DNA from: Actinoallomurus soli
GTDB taxonomy: Bacteria > Actinomycetota > Actinomycetes > Streptosporangiales > Streptosporangiaceae
DNA length: 64,000 nucleotides
Assembly: GCF_024055715.1 (NCBI RefSeq)
Contig: NZ_JAMXMV010000019.1
Span: 1-64,000, forward strand
Direction: 5' to 3'
This document shows positions 17,631 to 30,051 of the stretch, piece by piece (within the stretch, counting starts at the first letter, position 1; each line of letters opens with the position of its first letter). The position numbers were made by a program, and so were the translations under genes. The notes beneath the pieces were generated by a model. That model had not been told where the DNA came from. It was given only the letters and a program-made list of their open reading frames with translations, and did no database searches.

Positions 17631-18440
17631 CTAACCTCTAGTGACCTGCCGATGTACCGCCCAGACTCCTGCGGCCTCAGCCATATTCTCGATCCATTCC
17701 ATCGGAGTGTCGTCGGCGATCTCTTCCCACAATTTGGCACACGCCTGCGCGAAGACGGCCAGTCCCTTCGGGGGCGCGGCCTGCCAGGCGGGCGCCCGCT
17801 TCACCACCTGTTCCGCTGAGGTCGCGCTATGCCCGTTCGCGATCAGCCGCAGGATGAGGCAGGCCGGATCGATCCAACCGGCCCCCCTCGTCGGCCAGGC
17901 CCAGTCGATGAGCAGCGCCTGACCATCGGCGATCAAGACGTTGAGCGGGTTGTAGTCGGTGTGAAGGAGCCGGTCGCCCTTGAGCCATTCCAGGTCCGCA
18001 GGCTCGTCCACGTACGTCCGCCAACGGTCCTCCGCCAGTTTCACAGGCAGATCCGGGCACTGGATAGTGCCGAGCTCCGTCATGGCCTCGGCGACCTTCG
18101 GCAGATCGGCGGAGCCAGGCCGGTAGTCGGCGTGCCGGCCGTCGATCACTTCGAAGCCGAGTACGTCCCACTCGCCTTGCACCCGCCACAGCAGTCGGGA
18201 CGACAGGTGCGCGACATACGGGTTGATCATCGCTTCCATGTCCTGGTTCCAACGCCGGGGGTAGTCCCGATGCAGCCCCTTGACGAAAACAGGGCCGGCC
18301 TCGGTGGCCAGTATGGCCGCCACGGCGGAGTTCAGTCCTTCCGACACGGTCTTCGCTGACCACACCGTGCCGGTGTGCTCCTCGACCGCCGCCCTCGTCT
18401 CACCAGGTAGGTCTTCCCAGTGGATACGTTCGACCGCCAT
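17631..18440 (-). CDS. aminoglycoside-phosphotransferase-like kinase
   Basis: A 269-residue protein-kinase-like phosphotransferase. The Brenner motif LLHTDYNPLN (HxDxxxxN, near 158) and LIDWAWP (metal-binding Asp, near 176) are intact. The ATP-binding Lys is probable in GPVFVKGLHRDYP. ATG 18440 (MAVERIHWEDLPG) has GGGGGAG four bases upstream. It is the last gene of the radical-SAM RiPP locus, 71 bases after the precursor stop and beyond a hairpin, so it is transcribed with it but probably at lower level. It could phosphorylate the peptide, a pathway intermediate or an unrelated metabolite; the sequence does not decide. Confidence 0.8.
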   Translation of the reverse strand: MAVERIHWEDLPGETRAAVEEHTGTVWSAKTVSEGLNSAVAAILATEAGPVFVKGLHRDYPRRWNQDMEAMINPYVAHLSSRLLWRVQGEWDVLGFEVIDGRHADYRPGSADLPKVAEAMTELGTIQCPDLPVKLAEDRWRTYVDEPADLEWLKGDRLLHTDYNPLNVLIADGQALLIDWAWPTRGAGWIDPACLILRLIANGHSATSAEQVVKRAPAWQAAPPKGLAVFAQACAKLWEEIADDTPMEWIENMAEAAGVWAVHRQVTRG

Positions 18441-18466
18441 GTCTCCCCCTTGCTGACCGTGCCGAA

Positions 18467-18496
18467 GGGCCGCCCCGCGACATCGTAGGGCGGCCC
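18467..18496 (-). terminator. hairpin between precursor and phosphotransferase genes
   Basis: GGGCCGCCC (18467-18475) and GGGCGGCCC (18488-18496) form a perfect 9-bp stem with a 12-base loop, 15 bases after the precursor stop. A partial terminator here would raise precursor mRNA relative to the downstream kinase, a common feature of RiPP operons. Confidence 0.55.
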
Positions 18497-18511
18497 CGCC
18501 TCCAGCGACGG

Positions 18512-18643
18512 TCAGTACGGCTGGTCGTCGCCGGCAGTGCATGCACACATTGCCGTCTTGACCAGCGTGTCCAGGTCTCCGACGAACTCAACCTCGGACA
18601 GGGCCGTAGTCGGCTTCGGCCCGATTACAAGACCAACGGTCAT
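18512..18643 (-). CDS. putative RiPP precursor peptide, CxCxxGDDxPY C-terminus
   Basis: A 43-residue peptide. It begins MTVGLVIGPKPTT, has an acidic/hydrophobic middle (SEVEFVGDLDTLV), and ends KTAMCACTAGDDQPY. The ATG overlaps the stop of the radical-SAM gene (ATGA at 18640-18643), so translation is coupled. Size, position next to a SPASM-type radical-SAM enzyme, and a short Cys-containing tail rich in Asp and an aromatic residue all fit a precursor whose last ~14 residues are the core. The upstream in-frame extension (to 18769) lies inside the radical-SAM gene and is rejected. I do not recall a named family for this tail; it is not an FxLD, FxS or SCIFF precursor by sequence. Confidence 0.8.
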   Translation of the reverse strand: MTVGLVIGPKPTTALSEVEFVGDLDTLVKTAMCACTAGDDQPY

Positions 18644-19767
18644 CCAGCTACCCCCTCTCTCGGTTCTCGGTGCTGGCAGTAGGTCGCCAGCGGAGCCTTG
18701 GCCTTGCGGTACAGCTGCACGAGCGGCATGCAGGTGCCACACGTGCTCTGGAGCGAACAGCCGGTGCATCCGCCTTGCCGGAGGAGAAGCGAGTTGGCGA
18801 TCTCGCCGAGGCGACGAAGCCCTTCCACGCCTTCCTCGACGAGCGGGATGTTGGGGTCACGTCCGATCTTGCAGATGCTGGCCATACCGTGCGGATCGAC
18901 GTGGAAGAAGCTGTGGCCGGCATTGCAACCGGTGAACGGCTTGCGCTTGCGAAGATGCTCGACGGACTGCGCGGGCAGCGTCTCCGCACCGCCGTAGATC
19001 GTCGGTGCCATGTTCATGTAGAGGTGGTGAGGCACACCGAGCGCGTCACCCATGGCCTGCATCTGTTCGACCTCATGCGCATTGGTCTTCGTGATGATCA
19101 GGCTGAGTTTGAGTGGCAGGCGGGCCTCGTGCGCTGCAGCCAGCCCACGACTGAACGCTTTGAACGCGCCCCTTCGCCGGGTCAACCCGTCGTAGCTCGC
19201 CTCGGTCGCGCCGTAGACGCTGATTGTGATCTCGTGCGGTCGATGGGTCGTCAGCAGTTCGAGGATCTTCGGGTTGGCCAGCCGCGAACCGTTGGTGAGG
19301 ATGGTCAGCATCATGCCCAGGCGGTAGGCCGTGTCGTAGACGTTCGAGAAGAGCTTGTCGATCATTGGCTCGCCGCCCGTGAGCTGGAGCCAGAGCACAC
19401 CGGCGTCCCGCAGGATGTGAAGCAGCTTCTCCCGCTCTGGCCAGGACAGTCCCTCGAAACGCTTCAGCCCGAGATAGCAGTGTTCACAGTCGTAGTTGCA
19501 GCCGAGGTTGAGTTCGTAGGTTGCTCGCACGTAGCCGTACGGCGATTCAGTCCGTACGACGGCTGTCTCGTTAAGCGGTCGGCTGCTGATGTCGAGTTGC
19601 CAGGCCTGGCGCACGGCGTCGACCATCCACTCCGGCGCGTACCCACCGTTAGCGGCCGTCTTGCAGAGTGCCCGGTACTTGTCGCGTGGTAGCCGCAGGC
19701 CACCGTGGCTCCCTGGGCGCAGCACCAGGTAGTCGCCGGAGAATGGAGAGACGATCAATTCGTGCAT
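18640..19767 (-). CDS. radical SAM/SPASM peptide-modifying enzyme
   Basis: A 375-residue enzyme. The N-terminal ~70 residues (MHELIVSPFSGDYLVLRPGS...) look like a short recognition region. The radical-SAM cluster motif CNYDCEHC follows (Cys90, Cys94, Cys97), with LQLTGGEP and ILTNGSRL of the barrel. A C-terminal Cys-rich SPASM-like region (GCNAGHSFF, ASICKIG, GGCTGCSLQSTCGTCMP) should bind auxiliary Fe-S clusters. Such enzymes form C-S or C-C cross-links in RiPPs. ATG 19767 has GAGGGGAAG just upstream. Its stop overlaps the precursor start, which identifies the substrate. Confidence 0.9.
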   Translation of the reverse strand: MHELIVSPFSGDYLVLRPGSHGGLRLPRDKYRALCKTAANGGYAPEWMVDAVRQAWQLDISSRPLNETAVVRTESPYGYVRATYELNLGCNYDCEHCYLGLKRFEGLSWPEREKLLHILRDAGVLWLQLTGGEPMIDKLFSNVYDTAYRLGMMLTILTNGSRLANPKILELLTTHRPHEITISVYGATEASYDGLTRRRGAFKAFSRGLAAAHEARLPLKLSLIITKTNAHEVEQMQAMGDALGVPHHLYMNMAPTIYGGAETLPAQSVEHLRKRKPFTGCNAGHSFFHVDPHGMASICKIGRDPNIPLVEEGVEGLRRLGEIANSLLLRQGGCTGCSLQSTCGTCMPLVQLYRKAKAPLATYCQHREPREGVAG

Positions 19768-19991
19768 GGCTTCCCCTCGAAGATCGTCAGACCCTGTGGA
19801 CCGGCTCCGACTTCGTTTGGCGCGTAGGCCACAACTCTGAGCCGGATTCCGGGTGACATGCATGCGTGACGAGCGTGATCGGGGGGTGAAGCATTCCAGG
19901 CGTTCTCCATCGGCCGCCTTCCCGTGAGGGTGACCTTCGCCTGGACAGTAAGACGGCAGCAGCCTCCAACTCCGGAACCGGGTTACGGGGT

Positions 19992-20006
19992 AGGAACCTG
20001 GTTCCT
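19992..20006. promoter_or_regulatory. 15-bp palindrome in the 250-base gap upstream of the radical-SAM gene
   Basis: AGGAACC-T-GGTTCCT is a perfect palindrome with a one-base centre, too tight for a hairpin and therefore more likely a protein-binding site. It lies between the HAD gene stop and the radical-SAM start, where a promoter for the enzyme/precursor genes would be. Confidence 0.35.
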
Positions 20007-20017
20007 GATTCCGCAGC

Positions 20018-20626
20018 TCAGCCGAGCCGCAAAAGCTGTTCGACGCGAGCGATTCCCGCCTCTACATCGTCGAAGAACACCACGGCCATGCCCAGCCGTT
20101 CGGCCGGAGGCAGGTTGTGCGCGGTGTCGTCAACGAACACACAGTCCGACGGCCGCACCCCCATCTTGTCGGCGGTGAGCTGGTAGATATCCTCGCCGGG
20201 CTTACGGAGCCCGACCCGGTCGGAGATCACGACGGCGTCGAACCTTTCTTCCAGCCTGTACCCGTCGTATGGGTCATAGCTGCCGGTTCCCCATGAGTTG
20301 GACAAGACCGCTGTAGCGATACCCGCCGCACGGGCACGGTCGACCAGTTCCAAGACCGGTCGGCACGGCCGTAGGTCGGCGAGAATCTCACCCAACAGGC
20401 CGTGGGAGTCGACACCCAAGAGCCGCGCCAGCGCCGCTTCATACTCGCGCTGAGGCAAACGTCCATCCTCGACTGCGGCCAGCGCCGCCCGGCCCTCCTC
20501 GGAGTTGCGCAGTACGTTCTCGACGGCGGTCTCCCCCAGCCCTTCCCTGACGCCGAATGCCCGCATCGCTCCGTAGAAATCCGTGGTGACCACTCCGCCA
20601 AAGTCCAGAATCAGTCCCCGATACAA
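20018..20626 (-). CDS. HAD-superfamily phosphatase (subfamily IA)
   Basis: A 202-residue haloacid-dehalogenase-fold hydrolase. Motif I is in LILDFGGVVTT (Asp nucleophile; the usual second Asp is replaced by Gly, as in GGV-type IA members). Motif II is VLSNSWG, the motif III lysine is in RKPGEDIY, and motif IV is CVFVDDTAHN. The cap region between motifs I and II is alpha-helical. It starts 15 bases after the stop of the XRE-TPR regulator gene, so the two form one transcript ahead of the radical-SAM gene. It may oppose or complement the phosphotransferase of the same locus, but this is inference. Confidence 0.88.
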   Translation of the reverse strand: MYRGLILDFGGVVTTDFYGAMRAFGVREGLGETAVENVLRNSEEGRAALAAVEDGRLPQREYEAALARLLGVDSHGLLGEILADLRPCRPVLELVDRARAAGIATAVLSNSWGTGSYDPYDGYRLEERFDAVVISDRVGLRKPGEDIYQLTADKMGVRPSDCVFVDDTAHNLPPAERLGMAVVFFDDVEAGIARVEQLLRLG

Positions 20627-20640
20627 CCCTCAGCCTCCGA

Positions 20641-21978
20641 TCAGGAGATCGCCTTCAACTCGATCAGCTTCTCACCGAGTCGCCGGACCGTCGGTGTCCG
20701 GGTCGATCGCACGGTTTTGAACAATCTGGCTACTCGCTTCAAGCTGTCGGCGTGCCGAGTCTCGTTGATGATCTTCAACGCGTCGAGGGCATGTTCGGCG
20801 CCCTCCTCGACCTTCCGGTCCTGGACGTATGCCTCAGCGAGATCGATGTGGGCAGTGCAGCGGTGCTTGCGCAACGCTGGATCCAGCCGTCCGAGCGCGG
20901 CCAGCAGTTCGTCCTGGGCTTCGGCGTACCGACCGAGCCGCATGAGCCCGCCACCGCGGTAAGCGGTCACCTTATCCGCGTTGAACACACCGATGCCGAG
21001 CCACGGTCGAGCAGAGCCATCGCGTTGAAGGTGGGAGTCAGCCTCCTCCAGCAGCCGTTCGCAGTATCGGTCTTCACCACACGCAGCGTGCATCTCTGAG
21101 GCAACCGCCGACAGCCAGCCGTGAGTGACTGGGTGAACCCCGCGCCCTGCCAGATCGAGCGCACCACGAGCGAAGCCGACGCCGGCTCTGAGGTCACCGT
21201 CGTAGGAGGAGTGGAAAGCCCGACAACCGAGCGCGAACGCCAGGAGCTCAGGGTCGTCGATATGCTGGCCCGCCCTCGCTGCGACGGCCAAGTACTGCCG
21301 GGAGGACTCGAAGTCACCCAGATCCAGCATCAACATGACGCCGACCAGCGCAGCCATCTGCCCGATCATCGACACTACTCGGTTACGGTGCTCGCCAGCG
21401 TCGGGCGCGAGTTCCAAAAGTACATTTAACGTTCCGTAAGCCGGCCCAATCAGCGAGAACGCTGACGAAGATCGATAAACCTGGCGATAACCGAGTGTGG
21501 CCTGTTCCAAACCCTTCAGCGTCTCCGTGTCCAAGCGATGTTGCTGCGACAGAGCCGATTCGAGCCGATCCCCGAGGTCGCGCGGATTAGCCGGATAGCC
21601 GCCGAGCAGCTCTAGCATTCCCATGACCGAGGCGGCTGCCTGCCCAAAGAACCAGCGACGCTTCATCTCAGACCACATCTCCCAGTCACGAGGATTGATC
21701 AGCAGATGCATGAACTTTAGGGTCTGCTGCTGCTCAGGCTGCTCCTGCTCGCCACTGGTTCGCGCATCCAGGGCGACCAGATGAGCCAGCCGGACACCGA
21801 GGAGGGTGGAGATCTTCTGAGCGAGGTTGAGACTGTCGAGACGTATCACGCCCGTCTCCACCTTGGAAACCCAACTCTCACTTCGACCGATCAGATCTCC
21901 GAACTGCAACTGTGAGAACCCTTTGCGGCGCCGAGCCTCCGCCATACGTCGCCCCACTACGGTGTCGCGCTCGTCCAT
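20641..21978 (-). CDS. XRE-family regulator with TPR-like repeats
   Basis: A 445-residue regulator. The N-terminal helix-turn-helix (GRRMAEARRRKGFSQLQFGD, LIGRSESWVSKVETG) is followed by a ~350-residue helical region with tetratricopeptide-like pairs (e.g. FESSRQYLAVAARAGQHIDD, GRYAEAQDELLAALGRLDP, EGAEHALDALKIINETRH). This design is common among actinomycete regulators that sense peptides or act as switches for secondary metabolism. It is the first gene of the RiPP locus transcription unit (regulator, HAD, radical SAM, precursor, phosphotransferase, all leftward). Confidence 0.88.
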   Translation of the reverse strand: MDERDTVVGRRMAEARRRKGFSQLQFGDLIGRSESWVSKVETGVIRLDSLNLAQKISTLLGVRLAHLVALDARTSGEQEQPEQQQTLKFMHLLINPRDWEMWSEMKRRWFFGQAAASVMGMLELLGGYPANPRDLGDRLESALSQQHRLDTETLKGLEQATLGYRQVYRSSSAFSLIGPAYGTLNVLLELAPDAGEHRNRVVSMIGQMAALVGVMLMLDLGDFESSRQYLAVAARAGQHIDDPELLAFALGCRAFHSSYDGDLRAGVGFARGALDLAGRGVHPVTHGWLSAVASEMHAACGEDRYCERLLEEADSHLQRDGSARPWLGIGVFNADKVTAYRGGGLMRLGRYAEAQDELLAALGRLDPALRKHRCTAHIDLAEAYVQDRKVEEGAEHALDALKIINETRHADSLKRVARLFKTVRSTRTPTVRRLGEKLIELKAIS

Positions 21979-22372: not shown

Positions 22373-23590
22373 TCACCAGCTGATCGTCACCCGCGTGGTG
22401 GGCCGATTGATGAGCATGCCGGGCGCAAGCTTTTCATCAGGAGTACCCGCGGGGTGCGCGGTGATGATGGGTTGGGAGGGCCGGTCGTTGTCCCATTGAT
22501 GCAGCAGGTCGGCGAGGCTTGCGGCGAGCTTGACACTGTCGGGCCCATGCGTGATCACGCCGAGCTCGTCGACGTCCTCGCTGCAGGGGCGTACCGCGAT
22601 GTAGGCGATCGTGCCGCCGTGGTACAGGCAGGCGCCGGCCCAACGCCGGGCGGGGTTGATCAGGCCGCTGTCGCGGGCTGCGTTGGTGACGGCCAGGCGG
22701 CCGAACCGGCTGGCGTTGGTGGCCAGCCACAGGTCGAGGTGTTCGACCGGTTCGTCGTCGCGGACCCGTAGTCCGGTCCAGTGCTCATGGGCGGGGTAGG
22801 CCAGGGCCTGGGTGAGCAGGTCGTCGTCGTGGGGGTCGCGGGCGTCCAGTTTCAGGACGACGTCGGGGCTGAGCTGGATGATGTGGTCGCCGTGGGCGGC
22901 GCTGCCGCGCATGGGCACGAACCCGCACACGCGCGCGTGGCTGCTGACCATCCGGCCCGAAGGATTGAGGTCGAAGGCGATCGAGCGGGTCAGGCCGCTG
23001 CCGTGCAGGCGCAGCGGCACGACGATCCGTCCGCCGGGGGCGAGCTGCTCCCACCATGGAGAGGGGATGTCCCACGCTTCGGCGGTGACGATGATCCTGT
23101 CGTACGGGGCGCCGGCGGGATGTCCGGCGGCGCCGTCCCCGCAGATCGCCTCGACGTTGCGGTAACCGGCCCTGGCCAGCGCGGCGCGGGCCCCAGCGGT
23201 CAGGTCCTCGTCGATCTCGATGGTGACGATTCGACCGGCGTCGCCGGCCACTTCGGCGATCAGGGCAGCATTGATGCCGGTGGCCGCACCGATCTCCAGC
23301 ACCCGGTGACCGGGGTGGACGTCCAGGTCCTCCAGCTGGGTGGCGACCAGGTTCGGATGGGAAGCCGAGGAGATCGCGCTGCCGTCGGGGGCTCGTTTGG
23401 TGATGACGACCTGCGGGGCGTAGGCGGTCGCCAGGTCGACGCCTTCCAGGAACAGGTGCCGCGGCACGGCGAGGAAAGCCCGCTCTACCTGCGGGGTGCG
23501 GAACGTGCGGCGCCTGCGGATGTAGTCGACCAGGCCGGCCCGCAGCTGCGCGGGGTCAAGGCGCGAGGTGTCGATGGCGTCGTTGGTCAC
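22373..23590 (-). CDS. FxLD-system methyltransferase (PIMT-like)
   Basis: A 405-residue protein related to protein-L-isoaspartate O-methyltransferase: FRTPQVERAFLAVPRHLF, SSASHPNLVATQLEDLDVHP, the SAM-binding VLEIGAATGINAALIAEVAG, IVTIEIDEDL, and a C-terminal ~170-residue extension ending RPTTRVTISW. This matches methyltransferases encoded with FxLD lanthipeptides, where the related enzyme makes isoaspartate/aspartimide-type changes. GTG 23590 gives the usual N-terminus (TNDAIDTSRLDPAQLR). The same frame is open up to 23854 and there encodes the end of the thiopeptide-type protein, so a fusion is also possible. First or last steps of maturation cannot be assigned because no intact precursor is present. 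Confidence 0.85.
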   Translation of the reverse strand: MTNDAIDTSRLDPAQLRAGLVDYIRRRRTFRTPQVERAFLAVPRHLFLEGVDLATAYAPQVVITKRAPDGSAISSASHPNLVATQLEDLDVHPGHRVLEIGAATGINAALIAEVAGDAGRIVTIEIDEDLTAGARAALARAGYRNVEAICGDGAAGHPAGAPYDRIIVTAEAWDIPSPWWEQLAPGGRIVVPLRLHGSGLTRSIAFDLNPSGRMVSSHARVCGFVPMRGSAAHGDHIIQLSPDVVLKLDARDPHDDDLLTQALAYPAHEHWTGLRVRDDEPVEHLDLWLATNASRFGRLAVTNAARDSGLINPARRWAGACLYHGGTIAYIAVRPCSEDVDELGVITHGPDSVKLAASLADLLHQWDNDRPSQPIITAHPAGTPDEKLAPGMLINRPTTRVTISW

Positions 23591-24444
23591 CGCTGTCAGC
23601 GTAGCCGCAGGTGCGGCGGCAAGCGGTGCACTTCCGGAGCCGGGAGGCTCCATGTCCTGGTGGAAGACGGCATGGGCTGCCGTACCTGCGAGGACACCTT
23701 GCACATCGCCCGGCAGGCCCATCCGGTTCCAGGCGAACAGGATGTGGTGGGCGAGTACGGCCCGCACACCCCTGGTGAGGCGCCCGTCGGTGGCGAGGTC
23801 GGCGATGCGCCGGCCGGTGTGGGTGAACACGTCGGGCCAGGCGGGGACAGCCATGAGGGGATGTCGGCGCTGTGGCCGACGGCGGTGATGAGCTGCTGCA
23901 CGCTGCGCTCCGCGGCCTCCGACGGGACCGGCTGGTCACTGCTCCGGTGAGCAGTGACCTGGGCCCACACGTCGCCCTGTTCGTACCAGTCCAGGCCGGC
24001 GCCGCGCATCAGTGCAGTGCCCAGAAGCAGTCCGAGTTCCCGCCGGTGGTCCAGGCGCGCGTGCCGGATGTAGTCGAGGACGTGACGACTGTCGGCATGG
24101 AACAGCTGGTGGGCCAGGTCGATGCCGTCGGGGCCGCCGAACGCGTGGGTTTCGGGCTCATAGATCGGGGTGGTCCACCGCCGGATCGCGCCGGTGGCGG
24201 TCAGCTCCCGCATGAGCTGTTCGAGAAGGGCGACGGCCTGCGTCTGCCGGCCAGGGGCGGGAAGGTAGCGGATCCGCCAGGAGACGCCCTTGCGGAGGAA
24301 CCACCACGAGGTGATCACCTGAGCGTGCTCGGCGGCGACCAGTTGTGGGCCGAGGCGGCTGACGGCGATCTGCTCGGCGGTCGGCCAGTCGTCGCACCAC
24401 AGGGTCACTTGCCGCCAGAGGGTGTCCGTGGTCGGGATGTTCAT
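23591..24444 (-). pseudogene. thiopeptide-type bacteriocin biosynthesis protein, frameshifted
   Basis: From ATG 24444 (MNIPTTDTLWRQVTLWCDDW) about 196 residues match the thiopeptide-type domain (spaB C-terminal-like): SWWFLRKGVSWRIRYLP, WTTPIYEPETHAFGG, HADSRHVLDYI. After HSADIPSW near 23850 the frame degenerates, while the next frame carries the expected end of the domain (PAWPDVFTHTGRRIADLATD, RGVRAVLAHHILFAWNRMGL). That frame continues without a stop into the methyltransferase. So a one-base indel near 23845-23860 splits a gene that was either separate or fused to the methyltransferase. Such proteins assist the LanB dehydratase in glutamyl elimination. Confidence 0.75.
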
Positions 24445-24475
24445 CGCAGGGAGTTCCTTCACTGTTCGGCGTTGA

Positions 24476-25747
24476 CTAGTTGATCAGCAGGCTCGTTTCC
24501 CAGCCTCCGGAAGTCCCGGTCGCCAGGGTGTGCAGGACCAGCGCGGTCCCGGCGTTCCCGTCGATGAGCCCCGGCGTCTGCCCGACACGGGAGGCGTCGA
24601 CCGTGGCCAGGAGCGTGTCGAGCAGGCCGGGCAGCCGGGCGCCCAAGTCGGCAGAGAGCGCGTCGCCGGCGGCGCACCAGGTGGTGGCGATCAGACCGGC
24701 CCAGCCGTGGCAGAGCGCGGCGTCGGTGAGCCGGGCGAGTTGCGGCGGGTCGCAGAGGCATCGGGTGAGGGCCTGTTCGGCGTGGCGTTGCCGGTCCCGG
24801 TCGCCGAGGGCTTGGGCGGCGAGCTGCTGGGCGCGGGCGATGCCGGGGGTGCCGTAACACCAGGACGGCCGGGTCGGGCCGGTGCGGGCGGACCGGCCGG
24901 CCCGCAGGTCGGTCAGGGTGACCCGCTGCGGCCACCCGGGTCCCGTAGGGGTGTCGTAGCGCCAGGCGTCCAGCCACTGGCAGATCCGATGGATGGCGGT
25001 GGCCTGCCCGTCGACGGTGACGCCTTGCCGCATCGCGAGGGCGAGCAGCGCGAGAGGACCGCTGATCCCGTGGGCCATGCCGAGGTCGGCGTGCCCGCCA
25101 CGGAAGACGTCCGCGGGCCTGCCGTGGGGGATGTCGCTGGTCCACCAGCCCGGTGCTGCGTGCCCGGCTTCGTCGTCGGCGGGGAGTGGTTCGGTCAGCC
25201 GCACCAGGTAGGTCAGCACCTGGCGGCTCAGCGGTCCGTGTGGGTCGCGGTGCAGTAGGTAGGCGCCGAGTCCGGTCAGGCCGCGTACGAGGTCGAATTC
25301 GGCTCGGCTGGGGCGTGCCGCGGCGGCGATCCGGGCGGCGGCCGCCTGCAGGCGGGTCTGCACCAGCGCGGTCACGGCGGCGTCCAGCTGCTGCTCCGCC
25401 TTCGGATACCGGCCCGGCGGGGCTGTGACGGTGATAGCGAAGGCGACGGCGGGTGCCCCGTGCCATAGACCGGCGTTGGGTCCGGCGCTGATGTCCTCGC
25501 CGGCGGCATGCGCCAGCCACTGGTGGGCGCGGCCCCAGCCGCCGAGACCGGCGCGCGCGCGACAGCCGTGCAGAATAGCGACGCCTGCGGCTCCCTTGGA
25601 CAGGGACTGGCCCGGCCGGTGGGTGTCCGCAGGGCCCCGGTGTGTTCCGCAGGGCGGGGGGACGGCGAGGGCGTCTGACAGGCGGGCGGCGAGTTGGTGG
25701 GCGGCGTGCCGCTGCCGCGCGGACAGGACCTCGGTGAGCGAGCTCAT
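24476..25747 (-). CDS. LanC-like lanthionine cyclase
   Basis: A 423-residue LanC-family protein. The zinc ligands are present in SWCYGTPGIA (Cys near 294) and LCHGWAG (Cys-His near 345). The inner-barrel glycine motifs recur (SLSKGAAGVAILHG, DLVRGLTGLGAYLL, MAHGISGPLALLALAM). It would add Cys thiols to dehydrated Ser/Thr to close lanthionine rings. Its ATG overlaps the LanB stop (ATGA), so it belongs to the same operon. The enzyme looks intact although the upstream LanB gene is not. Confidence 0.9.
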   Translation of the reverse strand: MSSLTEVLSARQRHAAHQLAARLSDALAVPPPCGTHRGPADTHRPGQSLSKGAAGVAILHGCRARAGLGGWGRAHQWLAHAAGEDISAGPNAGLWHGAPAVAFAITVTAPPGRYPKAEQQLDAAVTALVQTRLQAAAARIAAAARPSRAEFDLVRGLTGLGAYLLHRDPHGPLSRQVLTYLVRLTEPLPADDEAGHAAPGWWTSDIPHGRPADVFRGGHADLGMAHGISGPLALLALAMRQGVTVDGQATAIHRICQWLDAWRYDTPTGPGWPQRVTLTDLRAGRSARTGPTRPSWCYGTPGIARAQQLAAQALGDRDRQRHAEQALTRCLCDPPQLARLTDAALCHGWAGLIATTWCAAGDALSADLGARLPGLLDTLLATVDASRVGQTPGLIDGNAGTALVLHTLATGTSGGWETSLLIN

Positions 25748-27792
25748 CGCTGCTCCTCGGCGGTGTCGTGGCGGGCGATCCAGCTGAGGGCGGCCGCGCG
25801 GGCGAGTCGGTCGCAGAGCTGTTCGGCGTCGGGATCGATCCCGCGGGCCCGGTTGTGGTGCAGGTGCAGCAGCGATCCGGTCACCGCGGCGGCCGTCACC
25901 GGGGTGCCGCCGGTGGCCAGGCGCTCGGTGTAGGTGACGACCGCGTCACGCCGAACCTCCCAGGCCTCGATCAGCGTGCCGAGCTCGTGGAAGGCCACCG
26001 GAGCGTTCGGCGGGCCGGCCAGTCGGAGGGTGTCGCGGACGAGACCGCGGTCGAGCGCCGGCGCCGGGGCGGTGCGCATGGTGGCGACGAGCCAGCGCAT
26101 TCCGGTACGGCGGTCTCCTGCCAGAGCGCAGGTCAGATCGATCATGCTGACAGCGGTGAGCACACTGGGATGGGCCTCGCGCCTGGCGGTCAATGCCTGT
26201 ACCTGCGCGACGGCGGCCGCGGAGTCGGCGGCGAACAGAGCTTCGGCGGCGGCCTGAGCCGTGCCCGAGCCGTAACGGGCGGTCTCCGGGTGGTAGGTGT
26301 CCAAGACCAGATCAGTGGCCAGGCCGCGTCGCCGTAGCTCAGCTGTCCAGGATCCGACCCGGGAGGCGGCCTCGCCGTACTCCTCAACGCGGCGCAGGTG
26401 AAGGCGGAGCCGCAGATGGGGGCGAGGGTCCCGGTACCGGATGAACCACCACATCGGCGCAGGCTCCCAACCGGCCAGGAGGTCCGGCACCGCTCGGGTG
26501 AGGATCGTGTCGAACACCTCCGGGTGCCCGTACACCTTGGCGAACAGCACGTCGCCCCCAGGAAGGACACCGTCCTGGTGGTCGACCAGCGGCAACGGGC
26601 CAGGACGGTTCACGACGGCGGGCGCCGGACCCGAGGGTGTGGACGACGCGATGGGGACGACGAGCTCGTGGGCGCGACCGCCGAACCATCCATGGTCGGT
26701 GGCCGACGTCGCTTCGGACACCACGGTGGTCTGCCCTCGCTTGGTGGTCTTGTCCAGGTGGTCCCGCAGCACCGCGCGATCCATCGGCGCGTCCAGATTC
26801 AGCCGCAGGAGACGATCGGACTCACCGACGCTCACGGTGGCCGGGAGGCCGAGACGCTCGCGTAGGGCGCTCAGCGCGGCGTCCCAGACCGGGCCGGGCG
26901 CCTCCGGGCCGGGGAGCGCGGCTGCGGAGATGCGCCACCGCGCCGGGGCCAGAACGGTGCGACCGGTACGGATGCGGGGCAGGAATGGCATGCAACCGGC
27001 AGGTCCCCAGGCGAACGGTGTCAGCGCGGCGTGCCGGGTGCGGGCGAGCTCGAAGACGAACCGGGCGAGCGGCGGCAGGGCGTGCCGGGCCGGCGCGTGG
27101 GCCAGCAAGGGCTCGACCATCTGTTGCCGGGACCGCGACAGGAGGTACAGGGCGTGGAGGTCTGCGGTGACCGCGAGATCGGGGAGGCAGAACCGTCCGG
27201 GTTCTTCAGCACGGTGCTCGGCGAGCGTGAGGATGTCGGGCAATAAGCGCGGTGCGCAGGTGAGGTTCTCTACGCGTGGATGCACGGGCGGAAAGCACAG
27301 CTGCGCGGCGATCGCCCCGTCGACACTGACCGGCAGTCGGCGGAACACACCGATCATCCGCTGCTGGTCCTCATCGGGCAGCAGGTCGAGGAACCGGCCG
27401 GCCAGGGCCGCCGCTGTCCGGCCCATCCCGACGACCATCAGCGTGAACGCTCCTTCGGCCAGCGCGGCCATCGTCGGCGCGGCCACCTCGACGCACAGGG
27501 CCGCGTGCGGAGCAGGCCGCGGTTGGATCGCCTCTCCCGCCGTCAAGGTGTCGATGAGGTGGTCATCGAGGACGACTTCGCGGGCACCGTCCAGGGCCGC
27601 TTGCTGGGCCAGCGCCAGCAGGCGTTGATCCCGCTGCGACATCGGCGCCGCCTGGCTCTGCTGCTCTGGGTTCGCGTAATGCGTGGGATACCCGAGGCCG
27701 GCCACCGGATCGATGAGCCGATCGAGAGGGACGACCGCGCTCTGCGCGTATCGACCGTGAACTGCGAGCGCTGCCGAATGATCTGCTGCCAA
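25744..27792 (-). pseudogene. lantibiotic dehydratase (LanB), N-terminal third missing
   Basis: The frame encodes the last ~680 residues of a LanB-type glutamyl-tRNA-dependent dehydratase. It opens at VPLDRLIDPVAGLGYP, which in complete ~1000-residue enzymes lies about one third in. It continues through MSQRDQRLLALAQQAALDG, PLARFVFELARTRHAALTPF, and the C-terminal elimination domain (LFAKVYGHPEVFDTIL, MWWFIRYRDPRPHLRLRL). A TTG at 27792 is the only start-like codon and has no good ribosome site. Upstream the sequence turns into an alpha/beta-hydrolase fragment in another frame. A deletion therefore removed the glutamylation domain's N-terminus, and activity is unlikely. Confidence 0.85.
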
Positions 27793-27839
27793 CCGGCCCG
27801 AGCAGGAAGCGGCGTACCGCCCGTTGAAAGGGCGCGGCA

Positions 27840-28246
27840 GCGGTCACCGAGTGGCGTGACGTGTAGAAAGCAGTGATTCCGCCACCGAAGCTGGCACCGA
27901 TGACGTTCACCGGACCGCTGCCCCTCTCGGCACGGGCGTGCTCTACGGCGGTGCGAATGTCGCTCACGACGCCCGAGATCGTGAGGTCTTCCTGTCGGCC
28001 GTCGCTCTCGCGATGCCCACGGAAGTCGGAGCGCAACGATGGCAGGGTGGCTTCGGCGATTCCCTCGGCCAGACGCGTGAAGAAACCGCCTTCATCCCGC
28101 GTGACACCAATCAGGCACAAGTCGGGGCTGGAGAACAGGCCGGCGGCGACGGTCCCCGGTTCCCTGTGGGCCAAGAACCGACGGACTGGTGCAGTAATAC
28201 GAGGAACGATCGTTCGGAATCTTGACATATCGCTCTGCTCTGACAT
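27840..28246 (-). pseudogene. alpha/beta hydrolase, 5' fragment
   Basis: About 130 residues match the N-terminal half of a serine-hydrolase of the alpha/beta fold: DLCLIGVTRDEGGFFTRLAE, LPSLRSDFRGHRESDG, and the nucleophile elbow IGASFGGGITAFY. After TSRHSVT the homology ends and the remaining frame is a shadow of the LanB fragment. The Asp and His of the triad are lost. The junction falls between about 27795 and 27840. The fragment is divergent, with a 96-base gap, from the WXG100 gene. Confidence 0.7.
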
Positions 28247-28342
28247 CGTCTGGTAGCGCTGTAAATGACGAGGGGGCGTCGACGCAGATGCGGCGTGGAG
28301 CCTACTGCCTACCGCCGGGGCCCCAGGGCCGGAGAGTGACGG

Positions 28343-28639
28343 ATGAGTAACCGGATCGTGGTCGATCTGTCGAAGGTGGAACAGGCGATCAGCGGGTTCG
28401 AGCGCGTGTTAGCCGCGTTGCGGAGACACTTGGCCGACTTGGATCGCGATCTGCAGGCATCCCTGGCGTCATGGGACGGGGATGCGGCGAGTGCGTACTG
28501 GGTGGCCCACAACGAATGGCAGGCGGCGGCCGCCGACATGGCCGAGCGGCTGGCGTCATTGCGCGGGACGCTGGTGACCGCACACGGCAACTACCGCACG
28601 TCTCTCCAGACCAATGTGACCATGTGGGACGTCGTATGA
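28343..28639 (+). CDS. WXG100-family type VII secretion protein
   Basis: A 98-residue helical hairpin protein with WDG at the turn (ASLASWDGDAASAYW) between two amphipathic helices, the WXG100 signature. It would pair with the downstream toxin protein for export by a type VII (ESX-like) system, which must be encoded elsewhere as no EccC-like gene is in the window. GGAGAGTGACGG precedes the ATG. The stop overlaps the toxin gene start (ATGA). Confidence 0.88.
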   Translation: MSNRIVVDLSKVEQAISGFERVLAALRRHLADLDRDLQASLASWDGDAASAYWVAHNEWQAAAADMAERLASLRGTLVTAHGNYRTSLQTNVTMWDVV

Positions 28640-30051
28640 CGGGCGGACCGCTGCCGTGGTCCCCGCCACAGCCGTGGCATCCCCCCTTGGTCGCTCCCTC
28701 ACGCGTCGAGGTGAGCCCGGAGATGGTGGCGGGCGCGGCGGCGAAGTTCGCCGTCGGTCAGCACGACCTCATCGATGCGTGGATGCGCCTGCAGGGCGCC
28801 CTGGAGGCCAACCGGGGAATGGCGGGCGACGACAAGGCCGCGCACACGTTCAACGACAAGTACGCGCCTGCCGTGCAGGCCGTATGGAAGGCCTTCCGGC
28901 AAGCCGTCGTCGTGCTCGGTGGGACCTCTCTTGGTCTCACGCAGACCGCGAACAATCATCTCAAGGCTGATCACCACTCACGCGCAGATGGTCGACAGGG
29001 ATCCCCCGGGCTGCTCGGCCCCAACGAGGTCTATCCGGACGTATCGATGGCGGCGCCTGCAGACGCCATCGGACCGGCGGCAACGGGCCCCTACTTCGGC
29101 GCGAACAAAATCCTGGCGGTGGTGTTGGCGGGGTATTGGCCGGCCGCTCACCCCAACGACCTCGAGAGTGCGGCCGGCGCCTGGCGGAACGCGGCGAGCG
29201 AGGTCATCAAGGTCGCCGACTGGTTGAACTGGGCCATCGGTCAGTTGACCGACTCGACCAAGACCCGTGACTTCGCCGCTATCCAGAAGTATTGGACGAC
29301 GGTCTACCGGCCCGGCGACGGACACAGCCTGTTGGGCGGGCTCGCCAAGTTGTGCAACGCACTCGGCGATGCCTGCGATGGCTTCGCGAGCGCCACCTGG
29401 AGTGCCCAGAACAAGATCAATCTAATCGTCAGCGCCCAGGAAGTACTCATCCTCCTCACCGCCGGGGCCGAGAACGTGATCGCCCGCGTCACCGCCGCCC
29501 TCGACCGGATCGCCCGGGCCAGTGTGACGGCAGTCGCGCGTGTCACCGGACGCACTATCACTGCGGAGGTCGTCGCCGAACTAGAGGCCGCTACTGCAGG
29601 CACCCCAAAGGTCGAACCGATCGAGGCGAATTTCAACGCCACCGTCGGTAAGGCCCTAGAAGACGAGATGGCCGCGGCAGATGGCGTGAAATCCGAAGGG
29701 AACCTGAGTATCACGGCAGCGAACCCATCGGACTCTGAGGTCAAAGCCGCCGAGTATCTCGCGGCACAAGGCCACGAGGTGATCCTGCGAGATCCTGTAG
29801 GCACCAGGGCCGGTGGCATGACGAGCGACCTGCTGGTGGACGGAGAACGCTGGGACGTTTACACACCGAAGAGCTCGAACCCCAACAGGATCGTCAGCGC
29901 GGTGGCTTCGAAGGGTAGTCAGGTGCACGGCGGCGGTGTCATCCTAGATCTGTCACAAACAAGCGTCACCCCTGAGGACCTTGGGAACATACAGGCCCGT
30001 ATAGCCGGGACGGGTGGTCGCGTGAGCAAGATAGTAGTGATGCCCAAATGA
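28636..30051 (+). CDS. polymorphic toxin with CdiA-type tRNase C-terminus
   Basis: A 471-residue protein. The first ~300 residues are a helical WXG/LXG-like secretion region (VSPEMVAGAAAKFAVGQHDL..., LESAAGAWRNAASEVIKVADWL) with an Ala-rich linker. The last ~110 residues (EVKAAEYLAAQGHEVILRDP, GGMTSDLLVDGERWDVYTPK, SAVASKGSQVHGGGVILDLS, GRVSKIVVMPK) match the PD-(D/E)xK-type tRNA-nuclease domain found at CdiA C-termini, with Asp in SDLLVDG and the D-x-Y-x-x-K of WDVYTPK as likely catalytic positions. Start ATG 28636 overlaps the WXG100 stop. It would be lethal to neighbouring or related cells lacking immunity. Confidence 0.85.
   Translation: MTGGPLPWSPPQPWHPPLVAPSRVEVSPEMVAGAAAKFAVGQHDLIDAWMRLQGALEANRGMAGDDKAAHTFNDKYAPAVQAVWKAFRQAVVVLGGTSLGLTQTANNHLKADHHSRADGRQGSPGLLGPNEVYPDVSMAAPADAIGPAATGPYFGANKILAVVLAGYWPAAHPNDLESAAGAWRNAASEVIKVADWLNWAIGQLTDSTKTRDFAAIQKYWTTVYRPGDGHSLLGGLAKLCNALGDACDGFASATWSAQNKINLIVSAQEVLILLTAGAENVIARVTAALDRIARASVTAVARVTGRTITAEVVAELEAATAGTPKVEPIEANFNATVGKALEDEMAAADGVKSEGNLSITAANPSDSEVKAAEYLAAQGHEVILRDPVGTRAGGMTSDLLVDGERWDVYTPKSSNPNRIVSAVASKGSQVHGGGVILDLSQTSVTPEDLGNIQARIAGTGGRVSKIVVMPK

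Follow-up and report, generated by a model that had tools for sequence, protein, structure and literature searches.

Kinase gene and tail tyrosine covary at a RiPP-like radical-SAM locus of Actinoallomurus soli and related actinobacteria

RESULTS

Kinase presence follows a single residue of the precursor tail

The stretch of Actinoallomurus soli DNA analyzed here (64,000 nucleotides of contig NZ_JAMXMV010000019.1; the window) carries on its minus strand, at 17631-19767, three genes that encode, in this order, a radical S-adenosylmethionine (radical-SAM)/SPASM enzyme, a 43-residue peptide and a kinase resembling the aminoglycoside phosphotransferases (APH). The trio is conserved among actinobacterial loci, the peptide ends in a conserved tail, and the kinase gene comes and goes with a Tyr in that tail. 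We consider it moderately probable that the locus makes a radical-SAM-modified peptide whose tail Tyr, which follows a Pro, is phosphorylated by the APH-fold kinase. Sequence comparison supports a locus of the type that makes ribosomally synthesized and post-translationally modified peptides (RiPPs): its precursor is translationally coupled, the tail C-x-C-x-x-G-D-D-x-P-Y is conserved and the kinase is one of its members; the initial annotation had read it in this way, but had also counted in a HAD phosphatase and an XRE-TPR regulator, both of which lie outside the conserved set. All genes are positioned as first annotated.

The radical-SAM protein was searched by pattern in 84,980 species genomes, which gave 49 loci. 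Matches were also present in overlapping whole-genome samples of relatives (11 of 149), the class (17 of 394), the family (29 of 297), one genus that is probably Streptomyces (71 of 392) and the phylum (6 of 396, all six previously found), as well as in eight PLSDB plasmid records, of which one is chromosome-sized and two cover 52% of the query. A total of 160 loci were analyzed, some being the same genome twice; seven with short ends or short matches were dropped, and of the resulting 153 loci 151 had a recognized precursor, which collapsed to 136 distinct loci once repeats were merged. Counts below refer to these 136 unless another number is given. One extra radical-SAM match in genome G651 and some weaker matches were left out of the set. 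The two loci without a recognized precursor were L204, a truncated radical-SAM gene extending up to a GNAT acetyltransferase, and L218, where the radical-SAM frame is broken and a frame reading shows a further open reading frame (ORF) ending CSCNAGDDNPY. The named loci fall into nine NCBI actinobacterial families, one of them represented by a single metagenome bin labeled Mycobacterium; the nearest named locus to that of the window, whose genome measures 9.4 Mb, is in A. spadix (92% in the radical-SAM protein).

By profile, the kinase was found in 98 of the 101 loci with a Tyr tail and in none of the 35 with His, Phe or Asn at the same position (Fisher p 2e-29, ignoring descent), which bears out the co-occurrence of tail and kinase that the initial annotation had proposed for checking. 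These counts include L207, which the pattern had read wrongly and which was reassigned manually to the Tyr loci with kinase (earlier table, 97/3/1/35). On a tree of the radical-SAM protein, Tyr switched independently about five times; the kinase changed in the same direction at a mean of 4.9 of 5 switches and never in the opposite one. The switch counts were the same in a second tree of 129 rows, built without the seven rows that contain in-frame stop codons (written as X). Among the 27 positions compared in leader and tail, the last was the most informative about the kinase, at 0.83 of the kinase's entropy compared with 0.52 for the next position, and within the C-x-C tail type the respective values were 0.81 and 0.64. 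Six of the genomes fetched (G082, G250, G557, G727, G741, and G806) hold one Tyr and one non-Tyr locus, and the kinase stands at the Tyr locus each time; in G082 it is the single kinase genome-wide at E 1e-20. At this threshold no kinase was detected genome-wide in G072 and G268, in which only non-Tyr loci were found. Likewise, among five related loci that all carry a GNAT gene, the kinase is missing from the two with Phe (L041 and L216) and present in their three sisters with Tyr (L059, L210, and L213). Fourteen additional loci from more genera and from plasmids comprised 11 with Tyr, all with the kinase, two with His and GNAT but without the kinase, and one with Phe and neither enzyme. A search for additional Tyr switches in other genera and in the phylum established no new independent one, several of the loci being repeats.

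A short precursor with two types of conserved tail

The window precursor gene (18512-18643, minus strand; 43 codons) starts with an ATG that overlaps the TGA of the radical-SAM gene (ATGA), and a likely ribosome-binding site, GAGAGGGGG, lies upstream of this ATG at 18651-18657 on the same strand. The coupling of a 43-residue peptide to the radical-SAM gene, as first described, is present, and the 4-base overlap recurs in 72 of the distinct loci when starts are set by a simple rule. The tail, CACTAGDDQPY (18515-18547, minus strand), is of the C-x-C type with a terminal Tyr. The precursor of the window had no Pfam or NCBIfam match, and in each of five plasmid records inspected the precursor carries the label 'hypothetical protein'.

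In 151 of 153 loci (repeats counted), a small tail-bearing ORF directly follows the radical-SAM gene. As a control, a slightly stricter tail pattern was found in 1 of 3492 other 600-nt segments of the distinct loci, which had themselves been selected for carrying the tail. Two types of tail were distinguished by their commonest letters: (i) C-x-C-x-A-G-D-D-[NQ]-P-Z in 91 loci; and (ii) G-C-[GN]-[DN]-D-N-P-Z, with a single Cys and usually one extra residue, in 45 loci, where Z is the residue after Pro. Within each type as sorted the Cys are invariant, the second Asp is kept in 97% and 100%, respectively, and Pro is present in 136 of 136; Z is Tyr in 101 loci and His, Phe or Asn in 35. The CxCxxGDDxPY tail was thus conserved in its Cys, Asp, and Pro, none of which varies freely, but not in full, as 45 loci have a single Cys and Tyr can be exchanged. 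Neither a missing small ORF nor a freely varying tail, which had been named at the outset as counter-evidence, was encountered, and the loss of Tyr runs in step with the absence of the kinase.

The Z position is not always C-terminal, with one or two residues following in 42 loci (none or one in 135, two in 1), so the acceptor would not simply be the carboxylate of a C-terminal Tyr. Ser or Thr occurs within the last ~12 residues in 82 of the 98 kinase loci; the remaining 16 have none, which leaves Tyr as the sole hydroxyl there. The residue between DD and P is Gln in 32 loci, all of them kinase-only and of the C-x-C type, and Asn in 44 of 44 GNAT loci; Asn also occurs in loci without GNAT and does not provide a firm rule. 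The leader is loosely conserved and hydrophobic-acidic.

The radical-SAM enzyme and the kinase

The radical-SAM gene (18640-19767, minus strand; 375 codons; Pfam Radical_SAM E 8e-13) encodes radical-SAM Cys 90, 94, and 97 in a CX3CX2C motif together with seven SPASM Cys (281, 299, 334, 337, 343, 346, and 364), as in SPASM maturases, and among 58 aligned relatives each of the ten is kept in 57 or 58, in agreement with its initial assignment as SPASM type. The last SPASM spacing is CX2CX5CX2C, one shorter than the usual CX2CX5CX3C. None of the best 25 of 50 matching NCBIfam families reached its cut-off (best, 65.1 bits against 500), and the nearest solved structures by profile were cytosylglucuronate decarboxylase, SkfB, and a PQQ (pyrroloquinoline quinone) synthesis protein E. 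In its AlphaFold model (predicted local distance difference test [pLDDT] 90.1) the enzyme opens with a beta-beta-beta-alpha-alpha domain, about residues 1-60, which could be a RiPP recognition element; this order of elements would fit. The gene persists whether the tail has Tyr, Phe, His or Asn; its own target should therefore lie in the Cys/Asp/Pro part.

The kinase gene (17631-18440, minus strand; 269 residues) starts 71 nt behind the precursor gene and encodes an HTDYNPLN catalytic loop and an LIDW motif. Its APH-like nature, proposed earlier, was confirmed by several means: the window protein matches Pfam APH weakly (E 0.0016, 18.6 bits, under the cut-off of 23.2), relative L131 passes it at 29.6 bits, and the AlphaFold model (pLDDT 96.9) matches APH and choline kinases. 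Fold matches included YtaA, choline kinase LicA, CcrZ, aminoglycoside and macrolide phosphotransferases, AmiN, corramycin phosphotransferase, and Cph001, with template modeling scores by query length of about 0.49-0.65 and identities of 12-20%. His160, Asn167, and Asp179 are present in 53 of 53 relatives, Lys54 in 52, and Asp162 in 49, with Glu in the other four; with its catalytic residues conserved, the protein should be an active kinase. A distant relative is encoded elsewhere in the genome of the window (G000:C15:11122-12024) and matches in two pieces.

An alternating acetyltransferase and the gene neighborhood

A GNAT acetyltransferase was identified by profile in 44 loci and is absent from the window. 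Kinase and GNAT mostly alternate, as both occur in 8 loci and neither in 2. The GNAT profile gave weak matches to the solved structures of tabtoxin-resistance (E 0.0016) and nourseothricin (E 0.044) acetyltransferases. A Lys before the first Cys was considered as a fixed GNAT acceptor and rejected, being present in only 16 of the 44 GNAT loci. Loci L145 and L246 have a Phe tail and neither enzyme; by eye, they share two other genes directly downstream, which in L246 (6346-7636) encode proteins of 170 and 151 residues with no Pfam match and are possibly a third partner set.

Up to two ORFs per side were scanned at 55-56 loci (103 upstream and 98 downstream ORFs), and the best 25 of 44 and best 25 of 130 families were listed, with those left out being single-member families. 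Upstream, HTH_31 (15), HATPase (7), DUF5753 (5), TPR (5), and NUDIX (4) were most frequent, while downstream no family exceeded 4 (GntR). The families with more than four members (HTH, DUF5753, TPR, and HATPase) are all of regulator type and all upstream; among the families listed no other enzyme family was frequent, and neither a transporter nor a protease recurred. DUF6415 'natural product biosynthesis' genes stand upstream in plasmid copies (L244 4005-4910 and L246 2999-3469), and DUF6415 was seen in 3 of the 103 upstream ORFs.

Two neighbors in the window were compared over 62 loci; in 13 of these the flanks span just 1.5 kb, and contig ends truncate some of the rest. The HAD-IA phosphatase-like gene (20018-20626, minus strand, TTG start) was matched in 3 of the 62 loci, one being that of the window and the other two Actinoallomurus entries that resemble one A. 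spadix place; the kinase/phosphatase pair of the initial annotation is not borne out by this distribution, and a HAD/kinase cycle was dropped. For the NsdA-family XRE-TPR regulator (20641-21978, minus strand; NCBIfam NF053720, E 1.4e-42), strong matches to the full gene were confined to the same three Actinoallomurus loci, with weak partial ones in some others, and it is no longer counted as a member of the set. Further along the minus strand (22373-27792) lies an FxLD lanthipeptide set consisting of a TIGR04364 methyltransferase, a split dehydratase C-terminal protein, a LanC-like protein, and a LanB seemingly without its N-terminal half (the Pfam match begins at model position 317 of 649). 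No evident precursor ORF was seen by eye at 27780-28480, and given this and the truncated LanB the set may be a remnant. On the plus strand (28343-30051), a short ORF that appears WXG100-like by eye overlaps a 526-residue ORF with WXG100_2 and CdiA_C domains, likely a contact-dependent toxin.

DISCUSSION

In the explanation that we prefer, the radical-SAM/SPASM enzyme would be translated together with the precursor, read its acidic, hydrophobic leader and modify the tail within its Cys/Asp-Asp/Pro part, where the most likely reaction links a Cys sulfur to Asp or a neighboring residue. The kinase would then phosphorylate the side-chain hydroxyl of the Tyr after the invariant Pro. In sister loci, the GNAT enzyme would acetylate tails of this class at a different position, perhaps on the N terminus exposed once a protease encoded elsewhere has removed the leader. 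That the loci constitute an unnamed RiPP class in nine named actinobacterial families, with phosphorylation of the tail Tyr by the kinase and the acetyltransferase as an alternative or additional cap, is a more tentative proposal.

Several points weigh against tyrosine phosphorylation. The case is built from comparison of sequences and models rather than biochemistry. To our knowledge, APH-fold kinases act on sugars, choline, macrolides, and Ser/Thr, and we know of none that acts on Tyr. With five switches the sign test yields p 0.0625 (range 0.0625-0.125), which is as low as it can go for five pairs. In the first tree one switch comes from a broken row (L205), and the two trees disagree on whether L052 stands apart from the L026 clade, so that four to five, and not a settled five, is the honest count. 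A single clade holds 26 of the 35 non-Tyr loci in the first tree and 25 of 33 in the cleaned one. Three Tyr loci (two from Glycomyces and L214) lack the kinase, with none detected genome-wide at E 1e-20. The recognition element is a candidate, read from the order of elements in a model, and with no recurring transporter or protease among the listed families a secreted product is not evident.

The clade that dominates the non-Tyr loci and the small number of switches are what would be expected if Tyr and kinase were linked by shared descent only, with kinase and GNAT acting on something else. We judge this improbable, as every switch is in step with the kinase, six genomes hold both kinds of locus with the kinase at the Tyr one, and the Phe loci L041 and L216 differ in kinase from their Tyr sisters. 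Less improbable, although still unlikely, is that the enzymes serve self-resistance, with the kinase, or elsewhere the GNAT, inactivating the mature peptide in its producer by Tyr phosphorylation or acetylation. Some antibiotic producers protect themselves with APH-fold kinases, and the fold neighbors here include the amicoumacin kinase AmiN, corramycin phosphotransferase, and Cph001, just as the weak GNAT matches include the tabtoxin-resistance and nourseothricin acetyltransferases; the alternation of kinase and GNAT would fit as well, and the requirement for Tyr would also be accounted for. However, the fold neighbors are broad and extend to choline and fructosamine kinases, the kinase gene adjoins the precursor as expected of a tailoring gene, and two of the three Tyr loci without kinase carry GNAT.

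Phosphorylation of tail Ser/Thr for dehydration, as by CaoK/CaoY or TsaC/TsaD with a HopA1-like lyase, would suit the 82 kinase loci with such residues, and PMC9486802 and PMC8153245 describe APH-like kinases of this role. It is nonetheless very unlikely, given that 16 kinase tails have no Ser/Thr, that Tyr best tracks the kinase and that HopA1 was found in no two of the upstream or downstream ORFs scanned (single-member families being listed in part). We give equally little credence to an intracellular cofactor made from a peptide, as mycofactocin and PQQ are, and tuned by phosphate and acetyl groups: the lack of a recurring transporter or protease among the listed families and the mycofactocin and PqqE maturases among the closest radical-SAM models would agree with it, yet the distribution is patchy (for instance in the samples of relatives and class), unlike that of a housekeeping cofactor, the radical-SAM match extends to plasmid records, and no partner dehydrogenase recurs among the listed families. 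A prokaryotic viperin with a kinase, in place of a RiPP, was already disfavored and has next to no probability. The PADLOC pVip model 'associated with kinases' does match (E 1.2e-17), but over residues 85-233 only, the radical-SAM core, whereas the NCBIfam viperin score is 50.5 bits against a cut-off of 180, the SPASM Cys are conserved, the kinase has the APH fold, and a precursor ORF accompanies nearly every locus.

No description of the tail fragments (including GDDNPY), of the radical-SAM/RiPP/phosphotransferase set or of phosphotyrosine in ribosomal peptides was found in the literature covered, which mostly excluded subscription journals. If tyrosine phosphorylation is true, the loci would represent a new RiPP family, unusual in its pair of caps, and Tyr would be added as an acceptor for a fold best known from antibiotic resistance. 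A natural experiment is at hand in related loci with Tyr and kinase or with Phe/His and no kinase, for which the prediction is that one tail residue decides kinase presence. The combination of tail, radical-SAM enzyme, and kinase or GNAT could serve as a search signature for loci whose precursor, as in the plasmid records inspected, is annotated as hypothetical.

Among known systems, the SPASM enzymes of mycofactocin and PQQ act close to the C terminus of a small precursor. The window enzyme scores 61.5 bits against 265 for the MftC type and 49.9 against 381 for PqqE, the precursor lacks an NCBIfam match and the tail Tyr is replaceable by His, Phe or Asn; mycofactocin was rejected on the radical-SAM score and the precursor. 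Triceptides (three-residue cyclophanes) are formed by radical-SAM enzymes on aromatic residues and need two residues after the aromatic one, and this class was rejected because two residues follow Z in only one tail. An APH-like kinase in a ribosomal-peptide locus is shared with class V lanthipeptides and thioamitides, whose loci carry CaoK, LxmK, and TsaC according to PMC9486802 and PMC8153245; here, in contrast, there is a radical-SAM enzyme and no recurring HopA1 lyase, and the kinase tracks Tyr rather than Ser/Thr. A dehydratase of that kind was rejected, with no HopA1 among the window neighbors scanned. The lasso peptide kinases PadeK, ThcoK, and PsmK, as described in PMC9266682, resemble the kinase proposed here in being tailoring enzymes linked to a single conserved residue at the precursor's C-terminal end, but their acceptor is Ser and they occur with a lasso cyclase and without a radical-SAM enzyme; the same source presents acetylation, by AlbT, as a peptide tailoring step. 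Finally, the sactipeptide and ranthipeptide maturases SkfB and StsB are likewise SPASM radical-SAM enzymes beside a short Cys-containing precursor, and SkfB is among the nearest solved structures. The window enzyme differs from them in score (59.5 against 625 bits for StsB and 43 against 300 for SkfB, the equivalog cut-offs) and its family in the short C-terminal DD-x-P-Z tail, in which the conserved Cys and Asp would allow a putative Cys thioether to a peptide carbon.

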